Source: Planobispora longispora
Lineage (GTDB): Bacteria > Actinomycetota > Actinomycetes > Streptosporangiales > Streptosporangiaceae
Assembly: GCF_016863135.1 (NCBI RefSeq)
Contig: NZ_BOOH01000062.1
Location: 1 to 64,000, forward strand
Length of the DNA stretch: 64,000 nt
Reading direction: 5' to 3'
In this document: positions 45,894-64,000 of the stretch, piece after piece
Layout: the number at the start of each line of letters is the position of its first letter
Numbering within the stretch: position 1 is the first letter of the stretch
Program-made: the position numbers and the translations under genes
Notes under the pieces: generated by a model
Database searches by the model: none
Told to the model about the DNA's origin: nothing
What the model saw: only the letters and a program-made list of their open reading frames with translations

Positions 45894-46085
45894 TTACTCC
45901 TCTAGGGAGAGGGCGGCTTTGGGGCAGGACCGCACGGCGTGCCGGACGCGGTCCGTCATCTCCGGCGGCGGCTCAGGCAGCAGCAGGTGCAGCTGGTCGT
46001 CGTCGTCGAGCTCGAAGACCTCCGGAGCGAGTCCTGTGCAGACCGCGTTGGCCTCGCAGACCAGATAGTCGACTTTGACCTTCAT
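45894..46085 (-). CDS. [3Fe-4S] ferredoxin
   Basis: The 63-residue ferredoxin has three conserved Cys (C10, C16 and C54 in SCPKAAL), the pattern of single-[3Fe-4S] ferredoxins that feed actinobacterial P450s. It has the acidic surface EVFELDDDDQ. It lies between PPOX (37 bp upstream) and the alcohol dehydrogenase (16 bp downstream). A likely client in this window is the CYP124/125-like P450 10 kb away; this is inference from known adhB-ferredoxin-P450 neighbourhoods in mycobacteria. Confidence 0.93.
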   Translation of the reverse strand: MKVKVDYLVCEANAVCTGLAPEVFELDDDDQLHLLLPEPPPEMTDRVRHAVRSCPKAALSLEE

Positions 46086-46122: not shown

Positions 46123-46587
46123 CTATACCGCGCCGGCGAGCTTACGGTGATCCCAGGAGATCACCCGGGTGGGCTCCACCACGAAGGCGACACGCTTGCG
46201 GCCGGTGTAGGCGACGTACTCCGTCAGGAGCTCCTCGGCCTCCGGCATCCCGGCCATCCGTCTGGCCACGTTCATGCCGACGTCGAGGATGCCCTCGGGG
46301 TCGTCGATCCTGCGGGCCACGCCGTACACCAGGACTCCGCGCAGGTCGGAGTACTCGTCTCCGGCCTCGATCAGGCAGCTCACCCGGGCGTCCCGCTCGA
46401 TGTTCCGCGTCTTCTGGGCCTTGCCGTAGGTCCAGAAGGAGATCTGGCCGGCGGTCAGCCCGTAGAACATGGTCACCAGGTGCGGTGTGCCGTCCGGGTT
46501 GATCGTGCCGAGCTGGAGCTTGCGTGCCTCGGCGATGAAGGCGGTGACCTCGTCGTCGGACATCACGATGCGGGCGCGCTGGTTCAC
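46123..46587 (-). CDS. PPOX-class (flavin/F420-dependent) family protein
   Basis: The 154-residue protein has the split-barrel flavin-binding fold of the pyridoxamine-phosphate-oxidase-like family. The typical beginning is MSDDEVTAFIAEARKLQLGT and core strands are TPHLVTMFYGL, ISFWTYGKAQKTRNI and GVLVYGVARRI. Actinobacterial members use FMN or F420 for reductions; no substrate can be assigned. I chose GTG 46587 because family members begin a few residues before the DDEV segment and because an upstream ATG (46611) would place the KstR-type box inside the coding region. It is the first gene of the PPOX-ferredoxin-ADH operon. Confidence 0.82.
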   Translation of the reverse strand: MNQRARIVMSDDEVTAFIAEARKLQLGTINPDGTPHLVTMFYGLTAGQISFWTYGKAQKTRNIERDARVSCLIEAGDEYSDLRGVLVYGVARRIDDPEGILDVGMNVARRMAGMPEAEELLTEYVAYTGRKRVAFVVEPTRVISWDHRKLAGAV

Positions 46588-46596
46588 GGTGCAAAG

Positions 46597-46610
46597 TAGA
46601 ACACGTTCCA
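46597..46610. promoter_or_regulatory. KstR-type box before PPOX-ferredoxin-ADH operon
   Basis: TAGAACACGTTCCA matches TnnAACnnGTTnnA at every fixed position. It lies nine bases before the PPOX GTG start and 80 bp before the divergent methyltransferase start. Confidence 0.72.
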
Positions 46611-46690: not shown

Positions 46691-47347
46691 ATGAGCGACA
46701 CCGCCCCGCCCCCGATGCCCCCCGACTTGCTGGGCGCCGCGCAGCGCGCCAAGGGGTTCATGCCGCACGCCGAGGGCCTCGCCCTGTTCGAGACCGCGGT
46801 CGCGTACGGCCCGCTCGGACCGATCTGCGAGATCGGCACCTACTGCGGCAAGTCCGCGGTCTATCTCGGCGCGGGCGCCCGCCAGGCGGGCTCCGTCGTC
46901 CTCACCGTGGACCACCACCGGGGCTCGGAGGAGATCCAGCCGGGCTGGGCGCACCACGACCCCACCCTGGTGGACCCGCGCTTCGGCAAGATGGACTCGC
47001 TGCCCACCTTCCGCGCCACGATCGCCTCCGCAGGGCTGGAGGAGGAGGTCATCGCGATCGTCGGCAGGTCCGAGCGGGTCGCGGGGCTCTGGAACACCCC
47101 GCTGGCGATGCTGTTCATCGACGGCGGCCACTCGGAGGAGCCGGTGACCGCCGACTACGAGGGCTGGGCCCCGCACGTCATGATCGGTGGCGCGCTGGTC
47201 TTCCACGACATCTACCCCGATCCGGCCGCGGGCGGGCAGGCGCCGTACCGGGTCTACCAGCGGGTCCTCGCCTCAGGGGCGTTCAAGGAGGTCCGGCAGG
47301 AGGGCTCGCTCCGGGTGCTGGAGCGCGTCGGCCCCGGCATCGGCTGA
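46691..47347 (+). CDS. Class I SAM-dependent methyltransferase
   Basis: The 218-residue protein of the Methyltransf_24/cephalosporin-hydroxylase-like group has a SAM-binding loop EIGTYCGKSAVYLGAG (about 38-53) and the acidic end-of-strand motif LTVDHHRGSEE. Putative metal or catalytic residues lie in LFIDGGHSEEPV and VFHDIYPDP. The ATG at 46691 is preceded by the shared 17-bp motif and the KstR-type box rather than a clear Shine-Dalgarno. It is divergent from the PPOX operon. The substrate is unknown. Confidence 0.82.
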   Translation: MSDTAPPPMPPDLLGAAQRAKGFMPHAEGLALFETAVAYGPLGPICEIGTYCGKSAVYLGAGARQAGSVVLTVDHHRGSEEIQPGWAHHDPTLVDPRFGKMDSLPTFRATIASAGLEEEVIAIVGRSERVAGLWNTPLAMLFIDGGHSEEPVTADYEGWAPHVMIGGALVFHDIYPDPAAGGQAPYRVYQRVLASGAFKEVRQEGSLRVLERVGPGIG

Positions 47348-48759: not shown

Positions 48760-49869
48760 TCAGCGGGAGTGGGCGTGGCTGCAGCCGCAGGCGGCCGTGG
48801 GGCGGTCCGTCGCGTGCGCGCCCGCGTCGCGGAAGACGCCCGCGCCCGCCGTACGGCCGAGCAGGGCGTCGGCGGCGAGCACGACGGCGGCCGCGGTGTA
48901 GGCCGAGCGCTCGTACGGGAACCACTTCTCGTTCACGAACTGCCAGCCGGTCCAGTAGGAGCCGTCGTCGTGCCGCAGGTGCTGCATGTCGGCGAAGAGC
49001 TTCAGCGCCCGCTCCCGCTCGCCCAGGGCGTCCAGCGCCAGCACCAGCTCGCACGACTCCGCGCCGGTCACCCAGGGCTGGTCGGAGACGCAGCGGATGC
49101 CCAGGCCCGGCTCGACGAACGTCTCCCACTCCTCGGCCAGCCGGGCGTGGGCCGCCGGGCCGCGCAGCGCGCCGCCGAGGATCGGGTAGTACCAGTCCAT
49201 CGAGAAGCGGCTCTTGTCGGCGAACGCCTCCGGGTGGGCGGCCAGCACGTGGCCGAGCTGGTCGGCGGCGAGCTCCCAGTCGGGCTGGGGGTCGCCCAGG
49301 TGCTCGCCGAGCAGCACGCCGCAGCGCAGGCCCTGGTAGATCGAGGAGCAGCCGGTCAGCAGGGCGTACGGCGCCGGCCGGCCGTCGGCCGCGCGCTCCC
49401 AGACGATCTCGCCCCGGGTGGTCTGCAGCCCGACCACGAAGTCCAGGGCGGCGCGCACGACGGGCCACATCTCCCGGGCGAAGCGCTCGTCCCCGGTGAC
49501 CCGCAGCTCGTGCCAGACGCCGACCGCGACGTAGGCCGCGTGGTTGGACTCCCCGCCCTTCTCGACCGCCTCGCCCTTGACGAGCTTCATCGGCCAGGAC
49601 CCGTCGGCCCGCTGGGTGCGCGCCAGCCAGTCGTAGCCCCTGCGGGCCGGCCCGGTCAGCCCGGCCACGGTCATCGCCATCAGGCACTCGACGTGGTTCC
49701 AGGCGTCCACGTGACCCTCCGGCCAGGGCACGCCGCCGTCGGGCTCCTGCACGGCCGCGATGCTCCGGGCGGTCTCGACGACCTGCTCCCACGTCAGGGG
49801 AAAGCCCGCGGGATCCTCCTCACCGGAGGATCTCGCGGCGTCGCCGTACCCGGGGGCCTGCTCGGTCAC
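48760..49869 (-). CDS. Terpenoid-cyclase/prenyltransferase-fold protein
   Basis: The 369-residue protein has helical QW-like repeats of an (alpha/alpha)6 barrel (ARTQRADGSWPMK, DWYYPILGGALRG, MQHLRHDDGSYWTGWQF). It is annotated in relatives as prenyltransferase or squalene-oxidase-repeat protein, but the fold is shared with glycan-processing enzymes. Its GTG start overlaps the methyltransferase stop by four bases. It is the third gene of a glycosyltransferase-methyltransferase-cyclase-fold operon common in actinomycetes. The C-terminus ends in a Cys/His patch (CGCSHAHSR), a possible metal site. Substrate not known. Confidence 0.82.
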   Translation of the reverse strand: MTEQAPGYGDAARSSGEEDPAGFPLTWEQVVETARSIAAVQEPDGGVPWPEGHVDAWNHVECLMAMTVAGLTGPARRGYDWLARTQRADGSWPMKLVKGEAVEKGGESNHAAYVAVGVWHELRVTGDERFAREMWPVVRAALDFVVGLQTTRGEIVWERAADGRPAPYALLTGCSSIYQGLRCGVLLGEHLGDPQPDWELAADQLGHVLAAHPEAFADKSRFSMDWYYPILGGALRGPAAHARLAEEWETFVEPGLGIRCVSDQPWVTGAESCELVLALDALGERERALKLFADMQHLRHDDGSYWTGWQFVNEKWFPYERSAYTAAAVVLAADALLGRTAGAGVFRDAGAHATDRPTAACGCSHAHSR

Positions 49870-50579
49870 GAGGGCTTCCGGACGTAGAGCACCACGCTCT
49901 TGCCGATGAGCGGGTTGAGCAGGGCCTCGGCGATGCGGGTGGCGGCCGGGCGCTTCATGATGTCCCAGACCAGGATCTCGTGGTACGCCTTGGCGAGCGG
50001 GTGATCGTCGTTGTTGACGCCGACCGCGCACTTGATCCACCAGTACGGCGCGTGCAGGCCGTGGGCGTGGTGGTGCGGGCCGATGCGGAAGCCGGTGGCC
50101 TTCAGCTTGGCGCTGAGCTCGGCGAGCGTGTAGATCCGCACGTGCCCGCCGGGGGCGGTGTGGTAGTCCTCGTCCAGCGCCCAGCAGATCCGCTCGGGCA
50201 GGAAGCTCGGCACCGTGATCGCGGCGTGGCCGCCGGGCTTGAGCACCCGGAAGATCTCCCGCATCGCCGCCATGTCGTCGGGGATGTGCTCCAGCACCTC
50301 CGCGGCGATCACCCGGTCGAAGCTGGCGTCCTCGAACGGCATGTCCAGCGCGTCGCCGGTCACGGTCTCGGCCGTCGCGCCCGGGGGCACCTCGCCGCCC
50401 TTGTCCATCGCGGCGAACATGCTCGCCACGCCTTCCAGCTCCGCCGCGTCCATGTCGAAGGCGACCACGTCGGCGCCGCGGCGCAGCACCTCGAACGCGT
50501 GCCGCCCGCCGCCGCAGCCCAGGTCGAGAACTCGGGTGCCGGGCCCGACGGGCAACCGGTCGAAGTCGACAGTCAGCAC
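49866..50579 (-). CDS. SAM-dependent methyltransferase (Methyltransf_11 type)
   Basis: The 237-residue class I methyltransferase has motif I LDLGCGGGRHAFEVL (about 16-30), an acidic motif VVAFDMD, VTGDALDMPF and EVLEHIPDD. The GTG at 50579 is supported by AAGGAG six bases upstream. The reading frame continues open into the glycosyltransferase region, but that part is not this gene. It overlaps the downstream cyclase-fold gene by four bases and follows the glycosyltransferase by 29 bp. It probably methylates a sugar or lipid-linked intermediate made by the operon; that is inference. Confidence 0.88.
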   Translation of the reverse strand: MLTVDFDRLPVGPGTRVLDLGCGGGRHAFEVLRRGADVVAFDMDAAELEGVASMFAAMDKGGEVPPGATAETVTGDALDMPFEDASFDRVIAAEVLEHIPDDMAAMREIFRVLKPGGHAAITVPSFLPERICWALDEDYHTAPGGHVRIYTLAELSAKLKATGFRIGPHHHAHGLHAPYWWIKCAVGVNNDDHPLAKAYHEILVWDIMKRPAATRIAEALLNPLIGKSVVLYVRKPS

Positions 50580-50608: not shown

Positions 50609-51853
50609 TTACTTCGCGCGCCGGGCCGCGATGGCCTCGCGGTAGGCCTCCACGGTCCGCTGCGCGACGACGTTCCAGGTGAAGCGCTCCATGACCCGGT
50701 CGTAGCCCTTCCTGCCGACCGCGGCCCGCTCCTCGGGGGAGTCGTGCAGGCGGCGCAGCACGGCGGCCAGCTCCTCCGGGTCGCCCGGGGCGACCTGGAT
50801 GGCCGCGTCGCCGACCACCTCGGGCAGCGCGCCGGTCCGCGAGGCGACCAGCGGGGTCCCGCAGGCCATGTGCTCGACGGCGGGGAGCGAGAAGCCCTCG
50901 TAGAGCGAGGGGACGACCGAGATCTCCGAGGTGGCGATCAGCTCGCCCAGCTCGTCGTCGGAGATGCCGTGCACGAACCGGACGCGGTCCCGCAGGGAGA
51001 GCTCGGCGACGAGTTTCTCGGTGGGGCCGCCCGCGGTCGGCTTGCTGACCACGGTCAGGTTCACGTCGCGCTCGGTGGCGAGCTTGGCGACCGCGCGCAG
51101 CAGCGTCGCCACGCCCTTCATCGGGGAGTCGGCGCTGGCCACCGCGACGATCGAGCCGGGCCGCTTGGGCAGCTCCGGGCGCGGGTGGAAGTAGCGGGTG
51201 TCCACGCCCAGCGGGATGAGCCGCATGTTGGCCTGGGGCACGTTGAAGTCGCGGTGGATGTCGGCGAGGGAGGACTCGCTGACGGTGAGGATCGGGTTCA
51301 GCCGGGGGGCGACCTTGGCCTGCATCCGCACGAAGCCGTACCACCGCCGCAGCGAGAACTGCTTGCGCAGCGGGGCGGCCTTCAGCTCGATCCGCCGGTC
51401 CACGCTGATCGGGTGGTGGATGGTGCCGACCACCGGGAACAGCTTCTGGATGCCGAGCAGGCCGTACCCGAGCGTCTGGTTGTCCTGGACCACGTCGAAG
51501 TCGCCGACGCGCTTGGCCAGCTCGCGGCGGGCGCGCAGGGTGAAGGTCAGCGGCTCGGGGAACCCGGCCGTCCACATGGTCGCGACCTCGAGCCAGTCGA
51601 TCCAGTCGCGGAACTCGCCCAGGCCGGGCGTGCGGAAGGGATCGTCGTCGCGGTACAGGTCCAGGCTGGGGACCTTGTTGAGGATGACGCCCTCGTCCAG
51701 CTCGGGGTACGGCTGGCCGGAGAAGACCTCGACGTGATGCCCGAGCGCGACGAGTTCACGGCTGAGATGACGCAGGTAGACACCCTGGCCACCGCAGGTC
51801 GGCTTGCTGCGGTAGGACAACAGCGCGACCCGCAGCGAATCACCATCCGGCAC
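50609..51853 (-). CDS. Family 4 glycosyltransferase
   Basis: The 414-residue retaining GT-B glycosyltransferase has an N-terminal Gly-rich acceptor loop (SKPTCGGQGVYLRHL) and a C-terminal domain with the GT4 signature PSLYEGFSLPAVEHMACGTPLVAS (in pieces, about 305-330). It likely uses a nucleotide-sugar, possibly GDP-mannose-derived given the divergent dehydratase gene. The ATG start is at 51853. It is the first gene of a three-gene operon with a methyltransferase and a cyclase-fold protein. Confidence 0.92.
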   Translation of the reverse strand: MPDGDSLRVALLSYRSKPTCGGQGVYLRHLSRELVALGHHVEVFSGQPYPELDEGVILNKVPSLDLYRDDDPFRTPGLGEFRDWIDWLEVATMWTAGFPEPLTFTLRARRELAKRVGDFDVVQDNQTLGYGLLGIQKLFPVVGTIHHPISVDRRIELKAAPLRKQFSLRRWYGFVRMQAKVAPRLNPILTVSESSLADIHRDFNVPQANMRLIPLGVDTRYFHPRPELPKRPGSIVAVASADSPMKGVATLLRAVAKLATERDVNLTVVSKPTAGGPTEKLVAELSLRDRVRFVHGISDDELGELIATSEISVVPSLYEGFSLPAVEHMACGTPLVASRTGALPEVVGDAAIQVAPGDPEELAAVLRRLHDSPEERAAVGRKGYDRVMERFTWNVVAQRTVEAYREAIAARRAK

Positions 51854-52160
51854 GGCAACCCCTTCCTCACCCTGTCCGAGCGAGGACAGGTACCGTGAAA
51901 GATGACCTTAGACCTCGGACCATACCATTCGATAGTCCTGGCCTGCTTAATGTGGAATTGTGTCCAACAACACCCTCACCAGGCACGAGCTGCGATGTTA
52001 GCCTGACCGAATCCGGCTCAGTGGAACGTGTTCTAGATGCGATGTGATCGATGAGGTGCTCACATCGGAGCAGAGCGGTACATTCGCCAGTCAACACCAC
52101 ACTGTTCGGGCGAGAAGACGGTCCGGGCGAGAGCCCTGCCCGACGAGCAAGGAGGACGCG
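51854..52160. other. Divergent promoter region, GT4 operon and GDP-mannose dehydratase
   Basis: This stretch of 307 bp has AT-rich segments at 51900-51960, a perfect KstR-consensus 14-mer at 52022-52035 and an AAGGAGG ribosome-binding site at 52149-52155. No small gene is evident. Confidence 0.5.
52022..52035. promoter_or_regulatory. KstR-consensus site before the GDP-mannose dehydratase
   Basis: TGGAACGTGTTCTA matches TnnAACnnGTTnnA at every fixed position, 125 bp before the TTG start. The gene context (sugar nucleotide) is unexpected for KstR, so it may be a chance match or an extension of the regulon. Confidence 0.5.
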
Positions 52161-53186
52161 TTGGCCAGGCGCGCGCTGATCACCGGCATCACCGGACAGG
52201 ACGGTTCCTACCTGGCCGAGCATCTGCTCAGTGAGGGCTACGAGGTCTGGGGCCTCGTCCGGGGGCAGGCCAACCCCCGGGTCTCCCGGGTGCGCAAGCT
52301 CCTGCAGGACGTCCAGCTCGTCCGGGGCGACCTGCTCGACCAGGGCTCGCTGATCTCGGCGGTGGAGAAGGTCCGGCCGGACGAGGTCTACAACTTGGGC
52401 GCGATCTCGTTCGTGCCGATGTCGTGGGAGCAGGCGGAGCTGACCGCCGAGGTCACCGGCATGGGCGTGCTGCGCATGCTGGAGGCCATCCGGGTCTGCT
52501 CGGGCATCTCCTCGCGGACCGCCGCGGGCTCCGACCAGATCCGCTTCTACCAGGCGTCGTCCTCGGAGATGTTCGGCCAGGTCCGCGAGACCCCGCAGGC
52601 CGAGACGACCCCCTTCCACCCGCGCTCGCCGTACGGCGTGGCCAAGGCCTACGGCCACTTCCTGACCCAGAACTACCGCGAGTCCTACGGCATGTTCGCC
52701 GTCTCCGGGATCCTGTTCAACCACGAGTCCCCGCGCCGCGGCGCCGAGTTCGTCACCCGGAAGGTCTCCCTGGGCGTGGCCCGCATCAAGCTCGGCCTGG
52801 CCTCCGAGCTGCGCCTGGGCAACCTGGAGGCCCGCCGCGACTGGGGCTACGCGGGCGACTACGTCCGCGCGATGCACATGATGCTCCAGGCCGAGGCCCC
52901 CGAGGACTACGTGATCGGCACCGGCCGCACCCAGTCGGTGCGCGAGCTGGTCGAGGCGGCCTTCAGCGCCGCGGGCCTCGACTGGGAGCAGTACGTGGTC
53001 TGCGACCAGGCCCTGCACCGCCCGGCCGAGGTCGACCTGCTCTGCGCCGACCCGAAGAAGGCCCGCGTCCAGCTCGGCTGGGAGCCGTCGGTCTCCTTCG
53101 AGGAACTGGTGGCGACGATGGTCGAGGCCGACATCAAGCTCCTGTCCGAGGGCGGCGACCCCGACCAGGACTCCTCCTGGCCCTGA
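52161..53186 (+). CDS. gmd: GDP-mannose 4,6-dehydratase-like SDR
   Basis: This 341-residue extended SDR probably converts GDP-mannose to GDP-4-keto-6-deoxymannose. Visible motifs are the nucleotide fold RRALITGITGQDGSYLAEHLL (in parts, residues 3-23), the catalytic ASSSEMFG, the YGVAKAYGH Tyr-Lys pair and FNHESPRRGAEFVTRK. The TTG at 52161 is supported by AAGGAGG six bases upstream. It is divergent from the GT4-methyltransferase operon, fitting synthesis of a deoxysugar-containing glycan. Confidence 0.92.
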   Translation: MARRALITGITGQDGSYLAEHLLSEGYEVWGLVRGQANPRVSRVRKLLQDVQLVRGDLLDQGSLISAVEKVRPDEVYNLGAISFVPMSWEQAELTAEVTGMGVLRMLEAIRVCSGISSRTAAGSDQIRFYQASSSEMFGQVRETPQAETTPFHPRSPYGVAKAYGHFLTQNYRESYGMFAVSGILFNHESPRRGAEFVTRKVSLGVARIKLGLASELRLGNLEARRDWGYAGDYVRAMHMMLQAEAPEDYVIGTGRTQSVRELVEAAFSAAGLDWEQYVVCDQALHRPAEVDLLCADPKKARVQLGWEPSVSFEELVATMVEADIKLLSEGGDPDQDSSWP

Positions 53187-55209: not shown

Positions 55210-56415
55210 TCAGGTGAGCGTGACCGGCAGCTCCTTGATGCCGTTGATGAAGTAGGAGCGCAGGCGGCGGACCGGACCGGCCTGGGCGAGCTTGGGCAGC
55301 CGGTCGGCCAGGACCTCCAGCATCACCCGGAGTTCGAGCTTGGCCAGGTGGTTGCCGAGGCAGAAGTGGGCCCCGCCGCCGCCGAAGCCGATGTGCGGGT
55401 TGGGGTCGCGGCCGATGTCGAAGACGCCGGGCGAGTCGAACACGTCCTCGTCGCGGTTGGCCGAGCTGTAGAACACCACGATCTTGTCGCCCTCGCGGAC
55501 CGGCTGGCCGCCGATCACCGTGTCGGCGGTCGCCGTACGGCGGAAGAGGTTGACCGGGGAGGCCCAGCGGACGATCTCGTCGGCCGCGGTGCCGGCCAGG
55601 GAGGGGTCGGCCACCAGCCGGGCCCACTGGTCGGGGTGCTCGAAGAGGGCGAGCATGCCGCCGGAGGCCCCGTTGCGGGTGGTCTCGTTGCCCGCGACGA
55701 GCAGCAGCAGCACGAACAGGTCGAACTCGTCCTCGCTGAGCGCCTCGCCGTTCTCGGCGGGCTGCAGGAGCTTGGTGATGATGTCGTCGCGGGGCTCCGC
55801 GCGCCGCTGGGCCGCCAGCTCGTTGGCGTAGGCGTAGACCTCCATGGCGGCGGCGTGCCCCTCGGCGGGGTCGGCGGCGTAGTCGGGGTCCTCGGCGCCG
55901 ATCATCCGGTTGGACCAGGAGAAGATCTTCTGCCGGTCCTCGACGGGCGCGCCGAGCAGCTCGCAGATCACGTACAGCGGGAGCGGGGCGGCGATGTCCC
56001 GGACGAAGTCGACCGAGGGGCGGCCCTTGGCCTCGTCCACCAGGTCGTGGCAGATGTCGCGGATGTGCTGCTCCAGCTGCCCGATGATCCGCGGAGTGAA
56101 GCCCCGGTTGACCAGGGAACGGCGCCGGGTGTGCTCCGGCGGGTCCTGGTTGAGCATCATCAGCCGCTGCATCTCGCGCTCGGCCTCGGGGATCTCGTTG
56201 AACAGGGCGAGCTTGCGGCTGGAGGAGAACAGCTCCGAATGGCGGGAGACATGGACGACGTCGGCGTGCTTGGTCACCGCCCAGAAGGGGGGCCAGTCCC
56301 GCGCGTCGTCGCCGTGGTGGCGGTAGACGGGGGCGTTGGCCCGCAACCAGGCGAGCTGCTCATGCGGTGGCCCGTGCTGCGCGTAGAGATCCTGATCGAC
56401 GAGGTCGATGTCCAT
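55210..56415 (-). CDS. Cytochrome P450 (CYP124/125-like)
   Basis: The 401-residue soluble P450 has the I-helix LLLVAGNETTRNG (AGNETTRN is characteristic of mycobacterial CYP124 and CYP125), ExxR in DEIVRW, the perf region and the heme loop FGGGGAHFCLG with Cys352. It ends NGIKELPVTLT like CYP124. These enzymes oxidise the terminal carbon of cholesterol or branched-lipid side chains. The ATG at 56415 is supported by AGGAGG four bases upstream. Upstream lie two KstR2-like sites and a KstR box. Electrons may come from the ferredoxin at 45894. CYP124 versus CYP125 cannot be decided by eye. Confidence 0.93.
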   Translation of the reverse strand: MDIDLVDQDLYAQHGPPHEQLAWLRANAPVYRHHGDDARDWPPFWAVTKHADVVHVSRHSELFSSSRKLALFNEIPEAEREMQRLMMLNQDPPEHTRRRSLVNRGFTPRIIGQLEQHIRDICHDLVDEAKGRPSVDFVRDIAAPLPLYVICELLGAPVEDRQKIFSWSNRMIGAEDPDYAADPAEGHAAAMEVYAYANELAAQRRAEPRDDIITKLLQPAENGEALSEDEFDLFVLLLLVAGNETTRNGASGGMLALFEHPDQWARLVADPSLAGTAADEIVRWASPVNLFRRTATADTVIGGQPVREGDKIVVFYSSANRDEDVFDSPGVFDIGRDPNPHIGFGGGGAHFCLGNHLAKLELRVMLEVLADRLPKLAQAGPVRRLRSYFINGIKELPVTLT

Positions 56416-56474
56416 GTGCCCTCCTGGAAAGGCGTACGTGCAGGGAAGCACGGAGCATGCGGGCGCGGCCCGGC

Positions 56475-56500
56475 GCCAAGCACTTGATCAAGCGCTTGGT
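56475..56500. promoter_or_regulatory. Paired KstR2-like sites before the P450
   Basis: CAAGCACTTG and CAAGCGCTTG occur back to back in a 24-bp near-palindrome. The second (56487-56500, ATCAAGCGCTTGGT) matches the KstR2 consensus AnCAAGnnCTTGnT exactly; the first differs at one outer base. KstR2 controls sterol-ring degradation in mycobacteria. The pair lies 60-85 bp before the P450 start. Confidence 0.6.
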
Positions 56501-56512
56501 CGGACTATTTTC

Positions 56513-56526
56513 TGAAACGTGTTCTA
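56513..56526. promoter_or_regulatory. KstR-type box before the P450
   Basis: TGAAACGTGTTCTA fits TnnAACnnGTTnnA at all fixed positions, 98 bp upstream of the P450 ATG and 13 bp from the KstR2-like pair. Confidence 0.72.
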
Positions 56527-56641
56527 TTACGCCGCGCGGGAAGAGTCAAGGGCCGGCGGTGTGACGGCCGCCTGCCGGACGTGTGACAGTCGTCTGCCGG
56601 GCACGGGACGGCCGCCCCGGGCCCCGGCGGCCGCGCGGTCC

Positions 56642-57475
56642 CTATCGGCGCAGCCGGACCAGGCAGGGAGTCGTCGAGAGCAGCTCGCGCGCCAGCTCCC
56701 GATCCCCCCTGACGACCGCCCCGACCGCCTCCGGGTCGCGGCGGTCGGCGAACAGGAAGCAGAACTCGATGACGTCCATGACGATCGTCGACTCCGGCCC
56801 CCCGGCGTCCTCGCCCAGACGGATCAGCCAGGTGCCGCCCCCGGGGCCGGTGAGGACCAGCTCGGCCACGCCCGTCACCGATCCGCCGCCGGCGCGGTGC
56901 GACAGGGGCAGGGAGCGGCATCCCATGTCCGCCATCGCGTACACGTGGTCGAACACCGGCTCCGGCAGGAGGATTCCCGTGACATTGCATATGTCCGTGC
57001 AATGCACCCAGGTCTCGAAGGCGCGGTTGGTGAGGTGATCCCTGGCCCGCAGCCGCAGCCCGCTCGCGACGATCTTCTCGTCGGCCAGGCCCGGCTCCGC
57101 CGCGCTCAGGAGCTCGCAGAGCGCGGCGGCCTGGGCCCGCCACCGCGCGAGCACCTCGTCGCGGCCCAGGCCCGCCGCGAGCACCTCGTCGGTGTACGCC
57201 TCCGGATCGTCGCTCGACGGCGGCCCTCCCGGCAGCGACGCGCCCAGCGCCGCGGCCAGCAGCCGGTCGGAGGCCATGAGATGGGCGATGACCTCATGGG
57301 CCATCCATCCGTGGATTACCGGCGCAGACCACGCCTCATCGGTCAGTTCAGGGAGTAACGCCTCCAGCGCCGCCACTCTGGCGGCGTACGGAGCCGCGTA
57401 CGCGGGAACGGGATGGGCGGGTCTGCGCCGTGCCAGTGCGGCTCTCAGAACGTCGTCACGGGTCACGTCCCTCAT
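56642..57475 (-). CDS. Maleylpyruvate-isomerase/DinB-like mycothiol-dependent family protein
   Basis: The 277-residue soluble protein has an N-terminal helical-bundle domain with the family's His pattern (HGWMAHEVIAHLMASDRLL, about 55-73, and FETWVHCTDI) and a C-terminal alpha/beta domain. Such proteins are putative mycothiol-dependent metalloenzymes; the reaction here is unknown. The ATG at 57475 has no strong ribosome-binding site, though the frame remains open upstream without recognisable homology. It lies between the P450 and a FadR-like regulator. Confidence 0.78.
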   Translation of the reverse strand: MRDVTRDDVLRAALARRRPAHPVPAYAAPYAARVAALEALLPELTDEAWSAPVIHGWMAHEVIAHLMASDRLLAAALGASLPGGPPSSDDPEAYTDEVLAAGLGRDEVLARWRAQAAALCELLSAAEPGLADEKIVASGLRLRARDHLTNRAFETWVHCTDICNVTGILLPEPVFDHVYAMADMGCRSLPLSHRAGGGSVTGVAELVLTGPGGGTWLIRLGEDAGGPESTIVMDVIEFCFLFADRRDPEAVGAVVRGDRELARELLSTTPCLVRLRR

Positions 57476-57552
57476 TCGACGAGCCGTCCCGTTAAGATCA
57501 CATCGCGATCTTCCTTTCCGGGCCGGACCGCATGATTTCCGGGTCCCGGGAG

Positions 57553-58227
57553 TCAGTCCGGGACCCGGCGGAGCCACTCCTCGACGTCGGCGACGTGCAC
57601 CGTGGCCCAGGCGCGGGCGACCTCGGGGCGGCGGGAGGCGATGGCCTCGCAGATCGCGGCGTGCTGCTCGCGGGTCCTCTCCAGGGCGTTCTCCCGCACG
57701 AGGCCCTCCCAGACGCGGGCGCGGGTGTTCGGGCCGGACAGGCACCCCAGGAGGGAGCAGAGCACCGCGTTCCCCGAGCCCTCCGCGATGCGCCGGTGGA
57801 AGCGCAGGTCGTTGTCGACGAGCTCGGCCACGCTGGGGTTCTCGGGCAGCGAGGCGAGGATCTCCCGCAGTTCGGCGATCTCGGCGTCGGTCATCTCCGT
57901 CGCGGCCATCGCGGTGGCCGCGGGCTCCAGGATCCGGCGGACCTGGAAGAACTGGAGCACGGTGTCGTCCCGCTGGAAGTCGACCACGAACGCCATGGCG
58001 TCCAGCAGGAGGTTCGGCTCCAGGCTGGTCACGTAGGTGCCGTCCCCCTGGCGCACGTCCAGCACGTTGATCAGCGTCAGGGCGCGCACCGCCTCGCGCA
58101 GGGAGTTGCGGGACAGCCCCAGCCGCCCGGCGAGGTCGGCCTCCTTCGGGAGTCTGCTGCCCGGCGCGAGCTCGCCGGACAGGATCATCTGCTTGATCCT
58201 GTCGATGGCGGCGTCGGTGACCGCCAC
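57553..58227 (-). CDS. GntR-family (FCD/FadR-type) regulator
   Basis: The 224-residue regulator has an N-terminal winged helix (LSGELAPGSRLPKEADLAGRLGLSRNSLREAV in pieces, about 16-47) and a C-terminal all-helical FCD ligand domain (about 75-215) with the metal-binding pattern DLRFHRRIAEGSGN...EQHAAI. FCD regulators respond to organic acids or acyl-CoA-type ligands. The GTG at 58227 has GGGAGG six bases upstream. An AGAC-type inverted repeat at 58252-58266 is a likely autoregulatory operator. Its targets may include the flanking genes. Confidence 0.92.
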   Translation of the reverse strand: MAVTDAAIDRIKQMILSGELAPGSRLPKEADLAGRLGLSRNSLREAVRALTLINVLDVRQGDGTYVTSLEPNLLLDAMAFVVDFQRDDTVLQFFQVRRILEPAATAMAATEMTDAEIAELREILASLPENPSVAELVDNDLRFHRRIAEGSGNAVLCSLLGCLSGPNTRARVWEGLVRENALERTREQHAAICEAIASRRPEVARAWATVHVADVEEWLRRVPD

Positions 58228-58251
58228 GCTTCACCTCCCGGAGACTCGCCC

Positions 58252-58266
58252 AGACGTCCGATGTCT
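58252..58266. promoter_or_regulatory. Inverted repeat before the FCD regulator
   Basis: AGACGTCCGATGTCT has 7-bp arms (AGACGTC / GATGTCT) with a single mismatch around one central base, 25 bp before the start. It is a candidate GntR/FCD operator. Confidence 0.5.
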
Positions 58267-58413
58267 AGGAGTGTATGGCGGGCGGTGGATGGTGCGGACC
58301 TTCCCCCGTGCCGGGGTTCTTCCCGCGCATCGGAGTCCCTTCTCCGCGCCGGGTTCCTTCCTGAGCGCCGGGGTCCTCCGCGCGCGCCGGAGTTCCCGGT
58401 CGCGCCGGGGCGA

Positions 58414-59433
58414 TCAGGGGCGCAGGGCGAACCGGACGCGGTCGGGGCCCGCCGTACGGCGGACCACCCCGCGCACCTCCAGCGCCCGCAGGTGCGCGGC
58501 CGCCTCCCCGGCGGCCATACCGCGCATCGTCGGCGACAGCTCCGCCCAGGGGCGGTTCCAGGTCATCCGCCCGGCGACCTCCCAGATGGTGAGCGGCTCG
58601 TGCTCCCGCGCCAGCAGGGAGGCGAGGGCCAGCAGCTTCTCCTCGTGGTGCGCGTGGATCTCCATCGCCCGGTCCGCCGAGCCGGGGAAGGTCCATTCGT
58701 GCGCGGGCAGGGTCTCCAGCTCGCCCAGCTCCGCCACCTTCTCCAGGGAGGCCATGAAGTCGCCGAGCGGATCGACGTCGTCGCGGTCGTAGGGGTAGAC
58801 GCCGACGTGCGGGGTGATCCCCGGCAGCACGTGGTCGCCGGTGAAGAGCCGGTCGGCGTCCCGCAGGTGGAGGCAGACGTGACCGGGGGTGTGGCCGGGC
58901 GTCCAGACCACCCGGAGCTCGCGGCCGGGCAGGTCGACCAGGTCCCCGTCGTGCAGTTCCCGGTCGGGCGGGGCGGGCGGCCGGGGCCGCTGCGCGGTCA
59001 CCTCCTCCACCTCGGACGCGTCGGCCCCCGCGCGTCTGAGCATGTCGGCCTGGAAGCTGCGGTGCTCCCTGTCCTGGAGCTCGTTCATGAGCCTGACCAG
59101 GGCGGCGTCGGCCTCGTGCATGGCGATCCACGCCCCGGACTCCTCCCGGACCTGCCCGGCGAGCCCGGCGTGGTCCGGGTGGAAGTGGGTGACCACCACG
59201 CCCCGGACCTCGCGCACGCCGATGCCGGCCGAGTCGAGGCCGTCCCGGAGCGCCAGCCAGGCGTCGGGGTGGTTCCAGCCCGCGTCGACGAGGACCGGCC
59301 CGCCGGGGGACTCGATCGCGTAGACGAGCGTGTAGCCGAGCGGGTTGCCCGGGATGGGGACCGGGACGCTCCACACCCCGCCGCCGAGGTCGGTCGGGCG
59401 CTGCTCGCTGTACGGCCTGCGGCGGGTCTTCAA
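58414..59433 (-). CDS. MBL-fold metallohydrolase (paralog of 31413-32465)
   Basis: The 339-residue metallo-beta-lactamase-fold protein has THFHPDHAG, TPGHTPGHV and FTGDHVLPG metal motifs and the same C-terminal helical tail (IWEVAGRMTWNRPW) as the paralog at 31.4 kb. The TTG at 59433 is my preferred start because GGGAG lies eight bases upstream; the frame stays open further upstream but in the shadow of the thiolase gene. It lies between the FCD regulator and the FadA5-like thiolase, suggesting hydrolysis of a steroid-derived thioester or lactone, which is inference. Confidence 0.85.
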   Translation of the reverse strand: MKTRRRPYSEQRPTDLGGGVWSVPVPIPGNPLGYTLVYAIESPGGPVLVDAGWNHPDAWLALRDGLDSAGIGVREVRGVVVTHFHPDHAGLAGQVREESGAWIAMHEADAALVRLMNELQDREHRSFQADMLRRAGADASEVEEVTAQRPRPPAPPDRELHDGDLVDLPGRELRVVWTPGHTPGHVCLHLRDADRLFTGDHVLPGITPHVGVYPYDRDDVDPLGDFMASLEKVAELGELETLPAHEWTFPGSADRAMEIHAHHEEKLLALASLLAREHEPLTIWEVAGRMTWNRPWAELSPTMRGMAAGEAAAHLRALEVRGVVRRTAGPDRVRFALRP

Positions 59434-59543
59434 TGCGGACGCTCCCGGTTCGAAGGGTTGCTCGGTCGTTCCCCGCGAGGGGGCCCGCGGTGTCCTCGGA
59501 CGTTTCCGGCGGCGACCTCCGGAGGGGCGCTTCCGGGACGCCG

Positions 59544-60791
<1,248 letters not shown>

Positions 60792-60794
60792 GTT

Positions 60795-61508
60795 TCAGGC
60801 GGAAGGCGTGGCCGTGAAATCGGCGAGGAGGCGGGCGGCGGCGATCTCGACGCGGCGCTGGACCTGCTCGTGGGTGCGGCGCCCTCGCAACATCTCCAGC
60901 AGTTCGTGGACCCAGACGCTGGAGAGCGAGCCCGTGAGGGCGAACTGCTCCTCGGTGGCGGTCTCCGCGGTGAGCCCGTCCCCGGCGACGCGGAGAAGCA
61001 GGCCCGCCATGCGGTCGCCGAAGGGGGTCTCCACCTCGGCCATGATCAGCGAGCGGATGAGCGCGTCGGCCAGCTCGGGCTCGCGCATGAGGCCCCGGGT
61101 GGCCCGCATGAGGACGTCGACGGCGCGGCCGGAGGGCGTGACGGCGCTGGGCGGGCGGCGCTCGATGCTGTTCTCCAGCAGGTCGATCTCCTCGCCGACG
61201 ACGGCGACGACCAGATCCATCTTGGAGGGGAAGTAGCGGTAGAGCGTGCCGAGCGCCACGCCCGCGCGCTCGGCGACGGTGCGCATCTGCATGGCCTCGA
61301 CGCCGCCCCGCGAGGCGAGGGCGGCGGCGGCCTGCACGATCCGCTTGCGCCGCTGGTGCTGACTTCTCGTGCGGACGCCGGTGGATGCCGGTTCGCTGGC
61401 CACGCCGGGGGCCCCCTTGCCTGTGGACGGTCCGGCGGTGCTCGGTGCGGAGGTGCCGGTGGCGCGCGAGGTGGGCGCCGCCTCGATGGTCGCATGCGGA
61501 GTGCGCAT
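60795..61508 (-). CDS. kstR: TetR-family steroid regulator (KstR-like)
   Basis: The 237-residue TetR regulator has a DNA-binding domain (RRKRIVQAAAALASRGGVEA, then MRTVAERAGVALGTLYRYFPSK) closely like mycobacterial KstR (Rv3574), which represses cholesterol-catabolism genes until a 3-oxo-steroid-CoA binds. The ligand domain follows in the same register (TEEQFALTGSLSSVWVHELL). The N-terminal 45 residues are Thr/Ser/Pro-rich and absent from mycobacterial KstR. A GTG at 61403 with AAGGGGG upstream could be the true start. A half-perfect KstR box abuts the ATG, suggesting autoregulation and a leaderless mRNA. Confidence 0.88.
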   Translation of the reverse strand: MRTPHATIEAAPTSRATGTSAPSTAGPSTGKGAPGVASEPASTGVRTRSQHQRRKRIVQAAAALASRGGVEAMQMRTVAERAGVALGTLYRYFPSKMDLVVAVVGEEIDLLENSIERRPPSAVTPSGRAVDVLMRATRGLMREPELADALIRSLIMAEVETPFGDRMAGLLLRVAGDGLTAETATEEQFALTGSLSSVWVHELLEMLRGRRTHEQVQRRVEIAAARLLADFTATPSA

Positions 61509-61522
61509 AAGAACACGTTATC
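61509..61522. promoter_or_regulatory. Probable KstR autoregulatory site
   Basis: AAGAACACGTTATC keeps the AAC-N2-GTT core but not the outer T and A. It begins one base upstream of the kstR ATG at 61508. Confidence 0.55.
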
Positions 61523-61641
61523 TGACTTCTGTGTACTCCGGCTGGTTACTGGCCAGTCACAAGGATGCCGCAACTTACACGGCTTATGCCCCATAAGAGC
61601 ATGTTGTGTTTCTCCGTTATGGATAGCCTCTGGACAATTAA

Positions 61642-61655
61642 TAGAATCTGTTCTA
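61642..61655. promoter_or_regulatory. KstR-type box before fadD17
   Basis: TAGAATCTGTTCTA is a KstR box with one change (AAC to AAT), 40 bp before the ligase start. Confidence 0.62.
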
Positions 61656-61695
61656 CTTTTCGAGCGGCTGCCTGAGGACCCTCCCGGGAGGCGCG

Positions 61696-63276
61696 ATGTC
61701 AGGGGAAGCTGCCGGAGACACACTGGCGGAGCTGCTGGAACGGCGTGCCGGAGACGACCGGCCCGGCCTGCTCTTCGAGGAGCGGGTCTGGAGCTGGCGG
61801 GAGTACGTCGCCGAGTGCCGGGCCCGCGCGGCCCGGCTGGACGCCCGGGGCAAGGCCGTCCACGTGGGCGTCCTGTTCGACAACGTCCCCGAGTTGCTGT
61901 TCCTGCTGGGCGGCGCCGCGCTGTCCGGCCATGTGATCGTCGCCCTCAACCCGACCCGCGGCGCCGCCGAACTCGCCCAGGACGCCGACGCCACCCACGT
62001 GGACCTCATCCTCCACGACCCCGCCTACGCCGGCCTCGCCGACCGGGTCGCCGCCCTGCGGACGGCCGGGCCCGGCGGCGCCGACCGGGCCGGGGACGAC
62101 GGGCTGGTGATGCTGATCTTCACCTCGGGGACCTCGGGACGGCCCCGGGCGGTGCGCGTGACCCAGCGGAAGATCGCGGTGCCGGGCACGAGCCTGGCGG
62201 CGCTGCTCTCGCCGCAGGACGTCGTCTACTGCGCGATGCCGCTGTTCCACTCGGGGGCGATCATGGCCGCCTACGCGCCCGCCCTGGCCTCCGGGGCCGC
62301 CCTGGCGCTGCGCCGGAAGTTCTCCGCCTCGGGCCTCATGGCCGACGTCAGGCGGTACGGCGTGACCTACCTGCACTACGTCGGCAAGGCCCTGTCCTAC
62401 GTCCTGGCCACCCCCGAGGCCCCGGACGACCGGGACAACACCCTGAAGATCGCCTTCGGGAACGAGGGGAGCGCCACCGCCACCCGCCGGTTCGGCGAGC
62501 GCTTCGGCTGTCACGTCATCGACGCCTTCGGATCCACCGAGACCGCGATCGCGATCACCCCCGACCCGTCCGGCCCGCCCGGCAGCCTGGGCCGGCTCCC
62601 CGAGGGCATCGAGATCCGCGACCCCTCCGGCCGGAGATGCCCGCCGGCGGTCATCGAGAACGGCCGGCTGCTCAACGCGGACGAGGCCGTCGGGGAACTG
62701 GTCAACACCGGCGGGCTGGGCCTGTTCGACGGCTACTACAACGACCCCGACGCCGACCGCGAGCGCGTCCGCGACGGGGAGTTCTGGTCCGGGGACATGG
62801 CCTACGCCGACGGGAACGGCTACGTGTTCTTCGCCGGGCGCGGCACCGAACGGCTCCGCGTCGACGGGGAGAACCTCGCGGTCGCCCCGATCGAGGCGGT
62901 CGTCCGCGAGTTCCCCGGCGTGGTCGAGGCCGCCGTCTACCCGGTCCCCGACGCGGCGGCCGGGGACCAGGTCATGGCCGCCCTCGTCATGGAGGGCCCC
63001 TTCGACCCCGGCGCCTTCGCGGATTTCCTGGCCGGCCGCCCGGAGATCGGGGCCAAAGCCGTGCCCCGATACGTCCGCACGGCCGCGGAGCTGCCGCAGA
63101 CCCCGTCCAACAAGATCATCAAGCGGCTGCTCGCCGCGGAGGCGTGGCGGACCGGCGACCCCGTGTGGTGGCGCCCGCCCCGCGAGCCGGGCTGGCGGCG
63201 GCTGACCCCGCAGGACGTCACGGAGATCGAGCAGGAATTCGGCCGGCACGGCCGAGAGCACCTTCTGGAGCGCTAG
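61696..63276 (+). CDS. fadD17: Acyl-CoA synthetase (FadD17-like)
   Basis: The 526-residue ATP-dependent acyl-CoA ligase has the P-loop-like LIFTSGTSGRPRAV, the ADENYLATE motif region DAFGSTETAIAI and YVFFAGRGTERLRVDGENL of the hinge. The C-terminal catalytic Lys lies in SNKIIKRLL. Segments such as ALRRKFSAS, DVRRYGVTYLHYVGKALSYVLATPE (in parts) and FGNEG are close to Mycobacterium FadD17 (Rv3506), which activates C5 steroid side-chain acids. The ATG at 61696 has GGGAGG upstream. Its stop codon shares one base with the following dehydrogenase start (TAGTG), so the genes are coupled. Confidence 0.92.
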   Translation: MSGEAAGDTLAELLERRAGDDRPGLLFEERVWSWREYVAECRARAARLDARGKAVHVGVLFDNVPELLFLLGGAALSGHVIVALNPTRGAAELAQDADATHVDLILHDPAYAGLADRVAALRTAGPGGADRAGDDGLVMLIFTSGTSGRPRAVRVTQRKIAVPGTSLAALLSPQDVVYCAMPLFHSGAIMAAYAPALASGAALALRRKFSASGLMADVRRYGVTYLHYVGKALSYVLATPEAPDDRDNTLKIAFGNEGSATATRRFGERFGCHVIDAFGSTETAIAITPDPSGPPGSLGRLPEGIEIRDPSGRRCPPAVIENGRLLNADEAVGELVNTGGLGLFDGYYNDPDADRERVRDGEFWSGDMAYADGNGYVFFAGRGTERLRVDGENLAVAPIEAVVREFPGVVEAAVYPVPDAAAGDQVMAALVMEGPFDPGAFADFLAGRPEIGAKAVPRYVRTAAELPQTPSNKIIKRLLAAEAWRTGDPVWWRPPREPGWRRLTPQDVTEIEQEFGRHGREHLLER

Positions 63277-64000
63277 TGGACTTCAATCTTGACGAGACGC
63301 AGGAAGACCTGCGCAAACTCGCCGCGGAGCTGTTCGAAGGGGAAGCTCCCACCTCGCGGATCGAGGCGCACGAGGCGAGCGGCGCGCCGTACGACGCGGG
63401 ACTGTGGCGCTCCCTGGCCCAGGCGGGCCTGCTCGGCGCGTGCCTGCCCGAGGAGGCGGGCGGCGCGGGGCTCGGGCCGGTGGAGATGGCCGTGATCCTG
63501 CGCGAGACCGGCGCCCGCGTCGCGCCCGTCCCCGTCCTGCAGAGCCTGGTCACGGCGGCGACCATCGCCCGGTACGGCTCCCGCGAGCAGCGCGAGGCCC
63601 TCGCCCCGCTGGCCGAGGGGGAGATCGTCCTGGCCGCGGCGCCGCGCGAGTCCGGCCGCGCCCTGGGCGCCGCCCCGGCCGTCACGGCCCGGCGGGAGGG
63701 CGGGGGCTGGGTCCTGCGCGGGCGCACGGGCGCGGTGCCCTACGGAGCCGAGGCGGCGAAGGTCCTGGTGCCCGCCGCGACCGGCGCCGACGACGGGATC
63801 GGGCTGTTCCTGATCGAGCCGGGGGCCGCCGCGGCGACGCCCGTGCCGCTGTCCACCGGGGAACCGGGGGCCGTGTTCACCCTGGAGGACGTCCCCGGCG
63901 AGCCGGTCGGCGCCGCCGACGGCGCGGCCTTCGCCGGCCTCCGGCGGATGACGACGGCCGGGACCATCGCCACGGTCTCCGGCGTGCTGGCCGGGGCGCT
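63276..64000 (+). CDS. Acyl-CoA dehydrogenase, 3'-truncated by window end
   Basis: The first 241 residues of an acyl-CoA dehydrogenase are visible (start GTG 63276, MDFNLDETQEDLRKLAAELF). The N-terminal helical domain contains GLLGACLPEEAGGAGLGPVE and the middle beta domain begins around GEIVLAAAPRES. It resembles the steroid-type FadE27/FadE26 subunits that form alpha2beta2 heterotetramers in mycobacteria, where fadE26, fadE27 and fadD17 adjoin. A partner fadE gene would be expected just beyond the right edge. The catalytic Glu region is not in the window. Confidence 0.88.
   Translation, partial: MDFNLDETQEDLRKLAAELFEGEAPTSRIEAHEASGAPYDAGLWRSLAQAGLLGACLPEEAGGAGLGPVEMAVILRETGARVAPVPVLQSLVTAATIARYGSREQREALAPLAEGEIVLAAAPRESGRALGAAPAVTARREGGGWVLRGRTGAVPYGAEAAKVLVPAATGADDGIGLFLIEPGAAAATPVPLSTGEPGAVFTLEDVPGEPVGAADGAAFAGLRRMTTAGTIATVSGVLAGA

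Follow-up and report, generated by a model that had tools for sequence, protein, structure and literature searches.

A KstR-like regulator beside side-chain catabolism and methylmannose polysaccharide genes in Planobispora longispora: a putative regulon of the Streptosporangiaceae

A cluster of genes resembling those of steroid side-chain catabolism, accompanied by a KstR-like regulator and a chain of short boxes, raises the question of whether Planobispora longispora, which is not a mycobacterium, degrades sterols under the regulator known from Mycobacterium, as an initial annotation of the sequence had proposed. Here we analyse the window, by which we mean the whole stretch of 64,000 nucleotides at positions 1-64000 of the 79,929-base contig C62 (NZ_BOOH01000062.1), together with its genome (8.84 Mb, completeness 99.96%) and related genomes. 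We consider it probable that a KstR-type repressor couples the β-oxidation of a steroid- or isoprenoid-type side chain to synthesis of methylmannose polysaccharide (MMP), without ring cleavage, and that this locus would form the centre of a Streptosporangiaceae regulon of the KstR type. Protein identities were taken from Pfam, from curated NCBIfam/TIGR models with their cut-offs and from matches to PDB structures; all are computational.

Operator-like sites in the window and in related loci

The operator pattern TnnAACnnGTTnnA is predicted at target promoters of the locus. Four exact boxes lie in the window: TGAAACGTGTTCTA upstream of a CYP125-type P450 gene (56513..56526), TGTAACGAGTTCTA upstream of a FadA5-type thiolase gene (60778..60791), TAGAACACGTTCCA between the MeT1-like and PPOX-class genes (46597..46610) and TGGAACGTGTTCTA between the ManT-like and GDP-mannose dehydratase genes (52022..52035). 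Simulated sequences (200 first-order Markov runs) gave a mean of 0.055 and a maximum of 1 per run, and when one mismatch was allowed the window held 8 sites against 2.6 ± 1.3 in shuffles. Two weaker boxes stand between the regulator and FadD genes: AAGAACACGTTATC (61509..61522), upstream of the KstR-like gene, retains only the core AACnnGTT, and TAGAATCTGTTCTA (61642..61655), upstream of FadD, has one mismatch, which falls inside the core (AATnnGTT). The initial annotation had placed the boxes at 56513, 60778, 61509 and 61642 correctly, including the imperfect state of the last two; it had missed the exact boxes at 46597 and 52022, and that the box set extends to MMP and envelope genes.

The convincing evidence for these boxes is their conservation across loci. 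We compared 80 related loci from many genera of the Streptosporangiaceae (the best 80 of 251 relatives, fetched via the TetR protein and divided into coding and non-coding parts by de novo gene calls) and found 100 exact sites in 208,614 non-coding bases and 0 in 1,373,005 coding bases, while the reversed-pattern control gave 0 in both. The exact box precedes FadA5 in 64 of 67 relatives and the core does so in all 67. Of 16 CYP125-like genes with an identity of 45% or more, 13 have the box upstream, and of 7 more distant P450 genes (26-34% identity) none does. The GDP-mannose dehydratase and ManT genes are reached by 8 of the 80 stretches, with a box upstream of each gene in 8/8, and the 46597-type box recurs in all 3 of those that reach the MeT1/PPOX region. 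For comparison, a box lies upstream of 13 of 603 genes that match none of the window's named genes. A 45 kb stretch of Nonomuraea gerenzanensis carries five sites, at the FadD, FadA5, CYP125, GDP-mannose dehydratase/ManT and MeT1/PPOX promoters, and none within genes.

The regulator's own promoter follows a distinct pattern, with the core AACnnGTT present in 80/80 relatives and the full pattern in 1/80. Operator-like sites of the GATAACnnGTTCTT type, that of position 61509, occur there in 60/80 and those of the TAGAAynnrTTCTA type, that of position 61642, in 71/80, with each reversed sequence at 0/80; the two types occur together in 53/80. Both types, or near forms of them, also precede the regulator in five FadA5-less relatives (L174-L178), FadA5-less denoting throughout that nothing matched FadA5 at E <= 1e-140. 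The promoter of an opuA-type gene, with a box at contig position 70581, was dropped as a conserved target after it was found boxed in 3 of 58 close relatives. In two other genomes with no FadA5 match at the same threshold (L180 and L181; f17, g79), a KstR-like gene has as its neighbour a gene for a luciferase-type oxidoreductase, with the box TAGAACCTGTTCTA.

The regulator, the side-chain enzymes and the ring-degradation genes

The KstR-like TetR repressor gene (60795..61508, minus strand) encodes 237 amino acids from an ATG at 61508; translation might plausibly begin instead at the in-frame GTG of position 61403. Its best PDB match is KstR (5ua2, 115 bits), its closest named relative is in Planobispora rosea (94%), and it is the sole strong KstR-like protein of its genome, the next-best TetR protein reaching 50.6 bits on the KstR model NF033703. 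The two halves of the protein diverge to different degrees. The DNA-binding domain is 64-70% identical to those of five KstR-like proteins of other families (66% for the KstR of a mycobacterium-like genome), and an unrelated TetR protein of the same genome gives 43%. The ligand domain is 20-28% identical to the same five proteins (23% for the mycobacterium-like genome, and 23-28% for three KstR proteins of families f4 and f26), with 17% for the unrelated TetR protein. In a tree of 63 rows the protein falls inside a Streptosporangiaceae clade of its own family (support 100*), separate from a clade of f4 and f26 proteins (98*) and from a third clade of f18 proteins (100*); the root towards the unrelated TetR proteins, whose branches are very long, is weak (78). 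Families are numbered as in our genome survey, f1 being that of the window, and we infer that f4 is Mycobacteriaceae-like and f18 Streptomyces-like.

The clustering of a FadA5 thiolase, FadD and FadE genes, a P450 and a KstR-like TetR gene described by the initial annotation was confirmed. The thiolase (59544..60752, minus strand; alternative called starts 60692 or 60701) passes the FadA5 equivalog NF005889 with 642 bits against a cut-off of 515 and matches the structure 4ubv at 535 bits. The P450 (55210..56415, minus strand), previously called CYP124/125-like, is nearest to CYP125 structures, scoring 523 bits with CYP125MRCA, 358-363 with CYP125, 324 with CYP124 and 247-254 with CYP142. The FadD ligase (61696..63276, plus strand) belongs to the CasI/FadD1/FadD17 group. 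The name FadD17 was rejected as a firm one because the ligase scores 490 bits on NF005897 (cut-off 850), slightly below the 529 bits for CasI, steroid-22-oyl-CoA synthetase (NF052587, cut-off 900; CoA, coenzyme A), while FadD1 gives 494 (cut-off 800).

FadD is the first of six genes that follow one another closely, FadD-FadE-FadE-ChsH2-ChsH1-Ltp2; the window takes in FadD and a portion of the first FadE. The first FadE overlaps FadD by 1 nucleotide and is cut by the window's end (63276..64000, plus strand; the gene runs to contig position 64367 and encodes 363 amino acids in full); its best PDB match is Tcur3481 (6wy8, 225 bits). Beyond the window follow a second FadE (contig 64367-65521), ChsH2 (65580-66593; 4wnb, 178 bits, with a DUF35 match to 6ok1_B), a MaoC-domain protein named ChsH1-type by position (66593-67003) and Ltp2 (67035-68207), which matches the aldolase chain 6ok1_A at 619 bits. 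We take 6ok1 to be a Thermomonospora curvata structure. By its predicted gene content FadE-FadE-ChsH2-ChsH1-Ltp2 is a steroid side-chain module. It resembles what we take to be the igr-type C22 side-chain operon, with the gene set FadE28-29/ChsH1-H2/Ltp2, and its Thermomonospora counterpart in having FadD, two FadE, a ChsH2 that carries a C-terminal zinc-ribbon/OB domain, a MaoC-type ChsH1 and Ltp2 in one run. It differs in that CYP125 and FadA5 form separate transcription units in Planobispora, and the known genes of nucleus degradation were not found in its genome.

This last difference was examined with three ring-gene models, none of which gave a finding: the KshA_C model has no match in the P. 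longispora genome, the best HsaC-type score there is 71 bits against a cut-off of 366, and the score of a KstD-type model is given with the objections below. Positive controls for the first two exist in the same class, where, among 394 genomes, a strong match (E <= 1e-80) to KshA_C occurs in 53 and to the HsaC-type model in 56; all 53 with strong KshA_C also have a strong HsaC-type match and a FadA5 over the model cut-off. This threshold scores weaker matches as absent, including KshA_C matches of 1e-16 to 5e-39 in f14, f17 and f18 and an HsaC match of 3.4e-77 (G018), and at Pfam's own cut-off 88 of the 394 genomes have a KshA_C match. So counted, 51 of the 104 FadA5-positive genomes are without strong KshA and HsaC matches, with neither ring gene in 11/16 of f1, 27/28 of f18, 8/8 of f14, 0/33 of f4, 0/12 of f26 and 5/7 of the others. 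Passages of PMC4810484 report 55 of 57 Streptomyces genomes without the steroid pathway. In the 11.85 Mb record of N. gerenzanensis, relatives of the KstR-like protein (81%), FadA5 (81%) and MmpH (76%) are present, and in the plasmid collection this species is not among the best 60 of 395 KshA records nor the best 60 of 190 HsaC records. That sequence (NZ_LT559118.1) was deposited as 'plasmid I' with 10 annotated features and looks chromosomal.

As the ring genes were not found, it is unlikely that the organism degrades sterols completely along the known 9,10-seco route, and side-chain removal is what the gene set, as annotated, would allow. The proposal that this organism degrades sterols under the same regulator is thus upheld for the types of side-chain enzyme and is unsupported for the ring, since KshA is unmatched and the HsaC- and KstD-type scores lie far below their cut-offs.

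Several neighbours of these genes complete this part of the window. A GntR/FCD-family regulator (57553..58227, minus strand; Pfam FCD and GntR) has a relative in 68/80 loci. An MBL-fold hydrolase adjoining FadA5 (58414..59433, minus strand; Lactamase_B) has one in 46/80 and scores 378 bits on NF053820, below the cut-off of 525. A polyprenyl synthase gene (54183-55181) lies beside the P450.

The methylmannose polysaccharide cluster and the envelope genes

Between the boxes at 46597 and 52022 lie four genes that we assign to an MMP cluster. One is MmpH, the methylmannose polysaccharide hydrolase (48760..49869, minus strand), which matches 7qsj with 466 bits (E 4.6e-139, with a profile of alignment A1); Pfam and NCBIfam gave no match, and the label 'Prenyltransferase' for this gene was rejected on the MmpH match. 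At E <= 1e-10, 90 of the 207 genomes of the class have an MmpH relative. The MeT1-like sugar 1-O-methyltransferase (46691..47347, plus strand) matches 6g7d at 254 bits, a structure whose PDB title is merely 'Methyltransferase domain protein' and which we take to be MeT1. The ManT-like GT4 mannosyltransferase (50609..51853, minus strand; GT4 Pfam domains) and the pMeT3-like methyltransferase, a putative 3-O-methyltransferase of MMP (49866..50579, minus strand; Methyltransf_11), were assigned by family domains and synteny only; MMP clusters in f4 have the same order, with 51-57% identity for ManT. Divergent from ManT is a GDP-mannose 4,6-dehydratase gene (52161..53186, plus strand; PF16363, 420 bits). 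Passages of PMC9883506 describe the MMP cluster of nontuberculous mycobacteria as the same four genes, ManT, pMeT3, MmpH and MeT1, in the same neighbourhood, the order on which our assignments of ManT, pMeT3 and MeT1 draw. The Planobispora cluster differs from the mycobacterial one in being flanked by KstR-type boxes near a KstR-like gene.

On the other side of the 46597 box begins a run of a PPOX-class F420-type oxidoreductase (46123..46587, minus strand; TIGR03618 67 bits, cut-off 79; PNPOx_N), a small ferredoxin (45894..46085, minus strand; Fer4_15 36 bits, cut-off 22.4) and a zinc alcohol dehydrogenase (44792..45877, minus strand; TIGR03989 302 bits, cut-off 440; ADH_N and ADH_zinc_N). Between MmpH and MeT1 lies a DUF1702 protein gene (47442-48251, minus strand), which is kept in some related clusters and not in all.

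The adjacency of regulator and MMP genes recurs outside the Streptosporangiaceae. In f18 the KstR-like gene lies 219-543 bp from ManT in 9/9 loci, with an exact box in the gap in 9/9 and the reversed pattern in 0/9, and five of these genomes (L169-L173) are FadA5-less. In f26 the KstR gene is 160-221 bp from ManT in 4/4 loci, and 3/4 have a box in the interval from MeT1 to FadE34, the fourth having no FadE34 there. Passages of PMC1995591 name Streptomyces coelicolor SCO2319 as a possible KstR orthologue with 32% identity and without synteny, and give no targets for it. In kind, SCO2319 probably corresponds to the KstR-like gene of f18, whose loci, unlike that account, show ManT adjoining the KstR-like gene and an exact box.

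In one f4 locus (L251) the perfect box TAGAACGTGTTCTA is separated from the MMP cluster by a few kb, on the far side of two P450 genes. A KstR site is given at MSMEG_6475 in passages of PMC1995591, and the MMP genes are MSMEG_6481-6484 in passages of PMC9883506; judged by number, the two are near one another. Neither 'regulat' nor KstR gave a hit as a term in PMC9883506, and the titles and abstracts of the best-ranked literature matches contained no link of KstR to the Streptosporangiaceae or to MMP. Two studies of Nocardioides simplex use neither methyltransferase nor glycosyltransferase as a word in their main text.

Envelope genes appear to be among the targets. On contig C10 boxes precede AftD and a nitronate monooxygenase-type gene, and a one-mismatch box lies between an acyltransferase gene and a PgfA-type gene. 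The last arrangement is conserved: among 25 divergent acyltransferase/PgfA promoters (from 30 family loci, the best of matches in 96 of 120 genomes) 16 have an exact box and 19 one within two mismatches, with 0 and 1 for the reversed pattern. The same contig carries a FadE34-like gene of 732 amino acids, so labelled by length and similarity, no model having been passed. Perfect TAGAACnnGTTCTA palindromes number only two in the genome. One (C63:59070-59083) precedes a 4HBT-domain thioesterase gene, and the other (C44:61943-61956) precedes an Rv3520c-type F420 oxidoreductase (TIGR03559 457 bits, cut-off 335). A further site, TAGAACGTGTTCCC (C15:49688-49701), is 24 bp ahead of a gene assigned to the Rv3169 family with 438 bits (cut-off 150).

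For comparison with Mycobacterium, we take Rv3545c and Rv3546 to be cyp125 and fadA5. The KstR (Rv3574) regulon, as given in passages of PMC1995591, shares with the Planobispora locus a TetR repressor, the operator TnnAACnnGTTnnA, a box at the repressor's own promoter and at the Rv3545c/Rv3546 promoter, and a boxed Rv3520c-type F420 oxidoreductase. The same passages report the M. tuberculosis site at Rv3520c/Rv3521 as gel-shift positive and the mycobacterial site at Rv0223c as gel-shift negative. The Planobispora system differs in that its regulator scores below the curated level and is divergent from FadD instead of fadE34, that its genome has no KshA match and HsaC/KstD-type scores far below cut-off, and that it has boxes at MMP and PgfA-type genes.

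A proposed regulon and its rivals

From these arrangements we propose the following mechanism. A repressor of the TetR family whose DNA-binding domain is KstR-like would repress its own gene through TnnAACnnGTTnnA operators near promoters, together with FadA5, CYP125, the FadD-FadE-FadE-ChsH2-ChsH1-Ltp2 operon, ManT-pMeT3-MmpH, MeT1 and the PPOX-ferredoxin-alcohol dehydrogenase run. Mycobacterial KstR has as ligands 3-oxo-cholestenoic acid and its CoA derivatives; the Planobispora repressor may similarly be released by an acyl-CoA derived from a steroid- or isoprenoid-like side chain. The enzymes would then shorten the side chain to the 17-ketone, freeing propionyl- and acetyl-CoA, while MMP might hold the hydrophobic CoA intermediates; in the absence of the known ring genes, the nucleus would stay unopened. 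Passages of PMC9883506 give the sequestration and protection of fatty acyl-CoA as a proposed role of MMP, which would make its pairing with enzymes that produce bulky acyl-CoAs a sensible one.

Several observations weigh against this mechanism. The regulator scores 142.5 bits on NF033703, under the cut-off of 280, which is exceeded in 34 of the 394 class genomes, the P. longispora genome not among them; this score, the divergent ligand domain and the clade of its own are the reasons why we call it KstR-like and not KstR, so that of the regulator as first described the recurrence of its boxes at the same promoters in relatives stands and its full identity is unsupported. The genome as a whole holds 42 exact sites against 13 with the reversed pattern, and, by de novo gene calls, 24 of them are intragenic and 18 intergenic, which makes the 14-mer by itself a noisy marker within a single genome; the expected enrichment upstream of lipid genes was borne out weakly. 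Sites within two mismatches of TAGAACnnGTTCTA are not enriched in the genome (132 against 254 reversed), and box counts from one genome were accordingly dropped as sole evidence. Among relatives, 3 of 16 CYP125-like genes are without a box and FadA5 was not found within the examined stretch in 13/80 loci. The MMP link is not universal, since MMP clusters present in f4 have a box upstream of ManT in 0/5 and those of f26 have one within two mismatches in 1/4; for ManT in f18, a test that allows two mismatches is uninformative because the reversed control also passes in 6/9, and we therefore used the exact pattern. As for the rings, NF009479 (PRK12845), which we take to be a KstD-type model, gave 20.5 bits in the genome against 793 with no positive control run, and a ring pathway of non-homologous enzymes may exist.

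Ordinary degradation of a steroid side chain, from cholesterol, a phytosterol or a bile acid, with the 17-ketosteroid left over or excreted and the MMP and envelope genes co-regulated as housekeeping, is a possible explanation, if a doubtful one. It accounts well for a FadA5 over its cut-off, a CasI-like FadD, a Tcur3481-like FadE and the matches of ChsH2 and Ltp2 to 4wnb and 6ok1, and passages of PMC4810484 record growth of T. curvata on cholate; what it leaves unexplained is the adjacency of regulator and MMP genes in the FadA5-less genomes L169-L173 and L174-L178. The unmatched KshA, HsaC- and KstD-type scores nowhere near cut-off, a ligand domain sharing just 20-28% identity with the KstR-like proteins from other families and a polyprenyl synthase gene beside the P450 would instead suit a non-steroid polycyclic isoprenoid (for example an endogenous lipid, or the side chain of a hopanoid-like or other cyclic terpenoid), sensed as its acyl-CoA by the KstR-like protein. 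We judge this unlikely: FadA5 passes a steroid-specific equivalog, Ltp2 is nearest to the steroid-pathway aldolase, and no terpenoid substrate has been identified. The absence of strong KshA and HsaC matches here and in 11/16 FadA5-positive genomes of the family could also mark the decaying remnant of a formerly complete steroid pathway, retained by chance, which is very improbable given long intact reading frames and the conservation of operators and gene order over 80 loci from many genera. Coupled control of side-chain β-oxidation and MMP synthesis by a KstR-type repressor is thus the reading we retain.

The operator and a related regulator span the Streptosporangiaceae and two further families, including genomes without strong ring-gene matches. 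We put forward tentatively, as a conjecture that may well prove wrong, that KstR did not originate as a regulator of steroid-ring degradation, and that its older and wider role is to couple the β-oxidation of steroid- or isoprenoid-type side chains to synthesis of MMP, as an intracellular carrier of acyl-CoA, and to PgfA-type envelope lipid trafficking, ring degradation having been added later, for example in Mycobacteriales. On this conjecture, about half of FadA5-bearing actinobacteria would strip side chains and leave the rings closed. The proposed coupling would also suggest a concrete, testable role for MMP, whose function is only proposed in print. Industrially, 17-ketosteroids are made with engineered mycolicibacteria; a large set of actinobacteria may naturally stop at these compounds.

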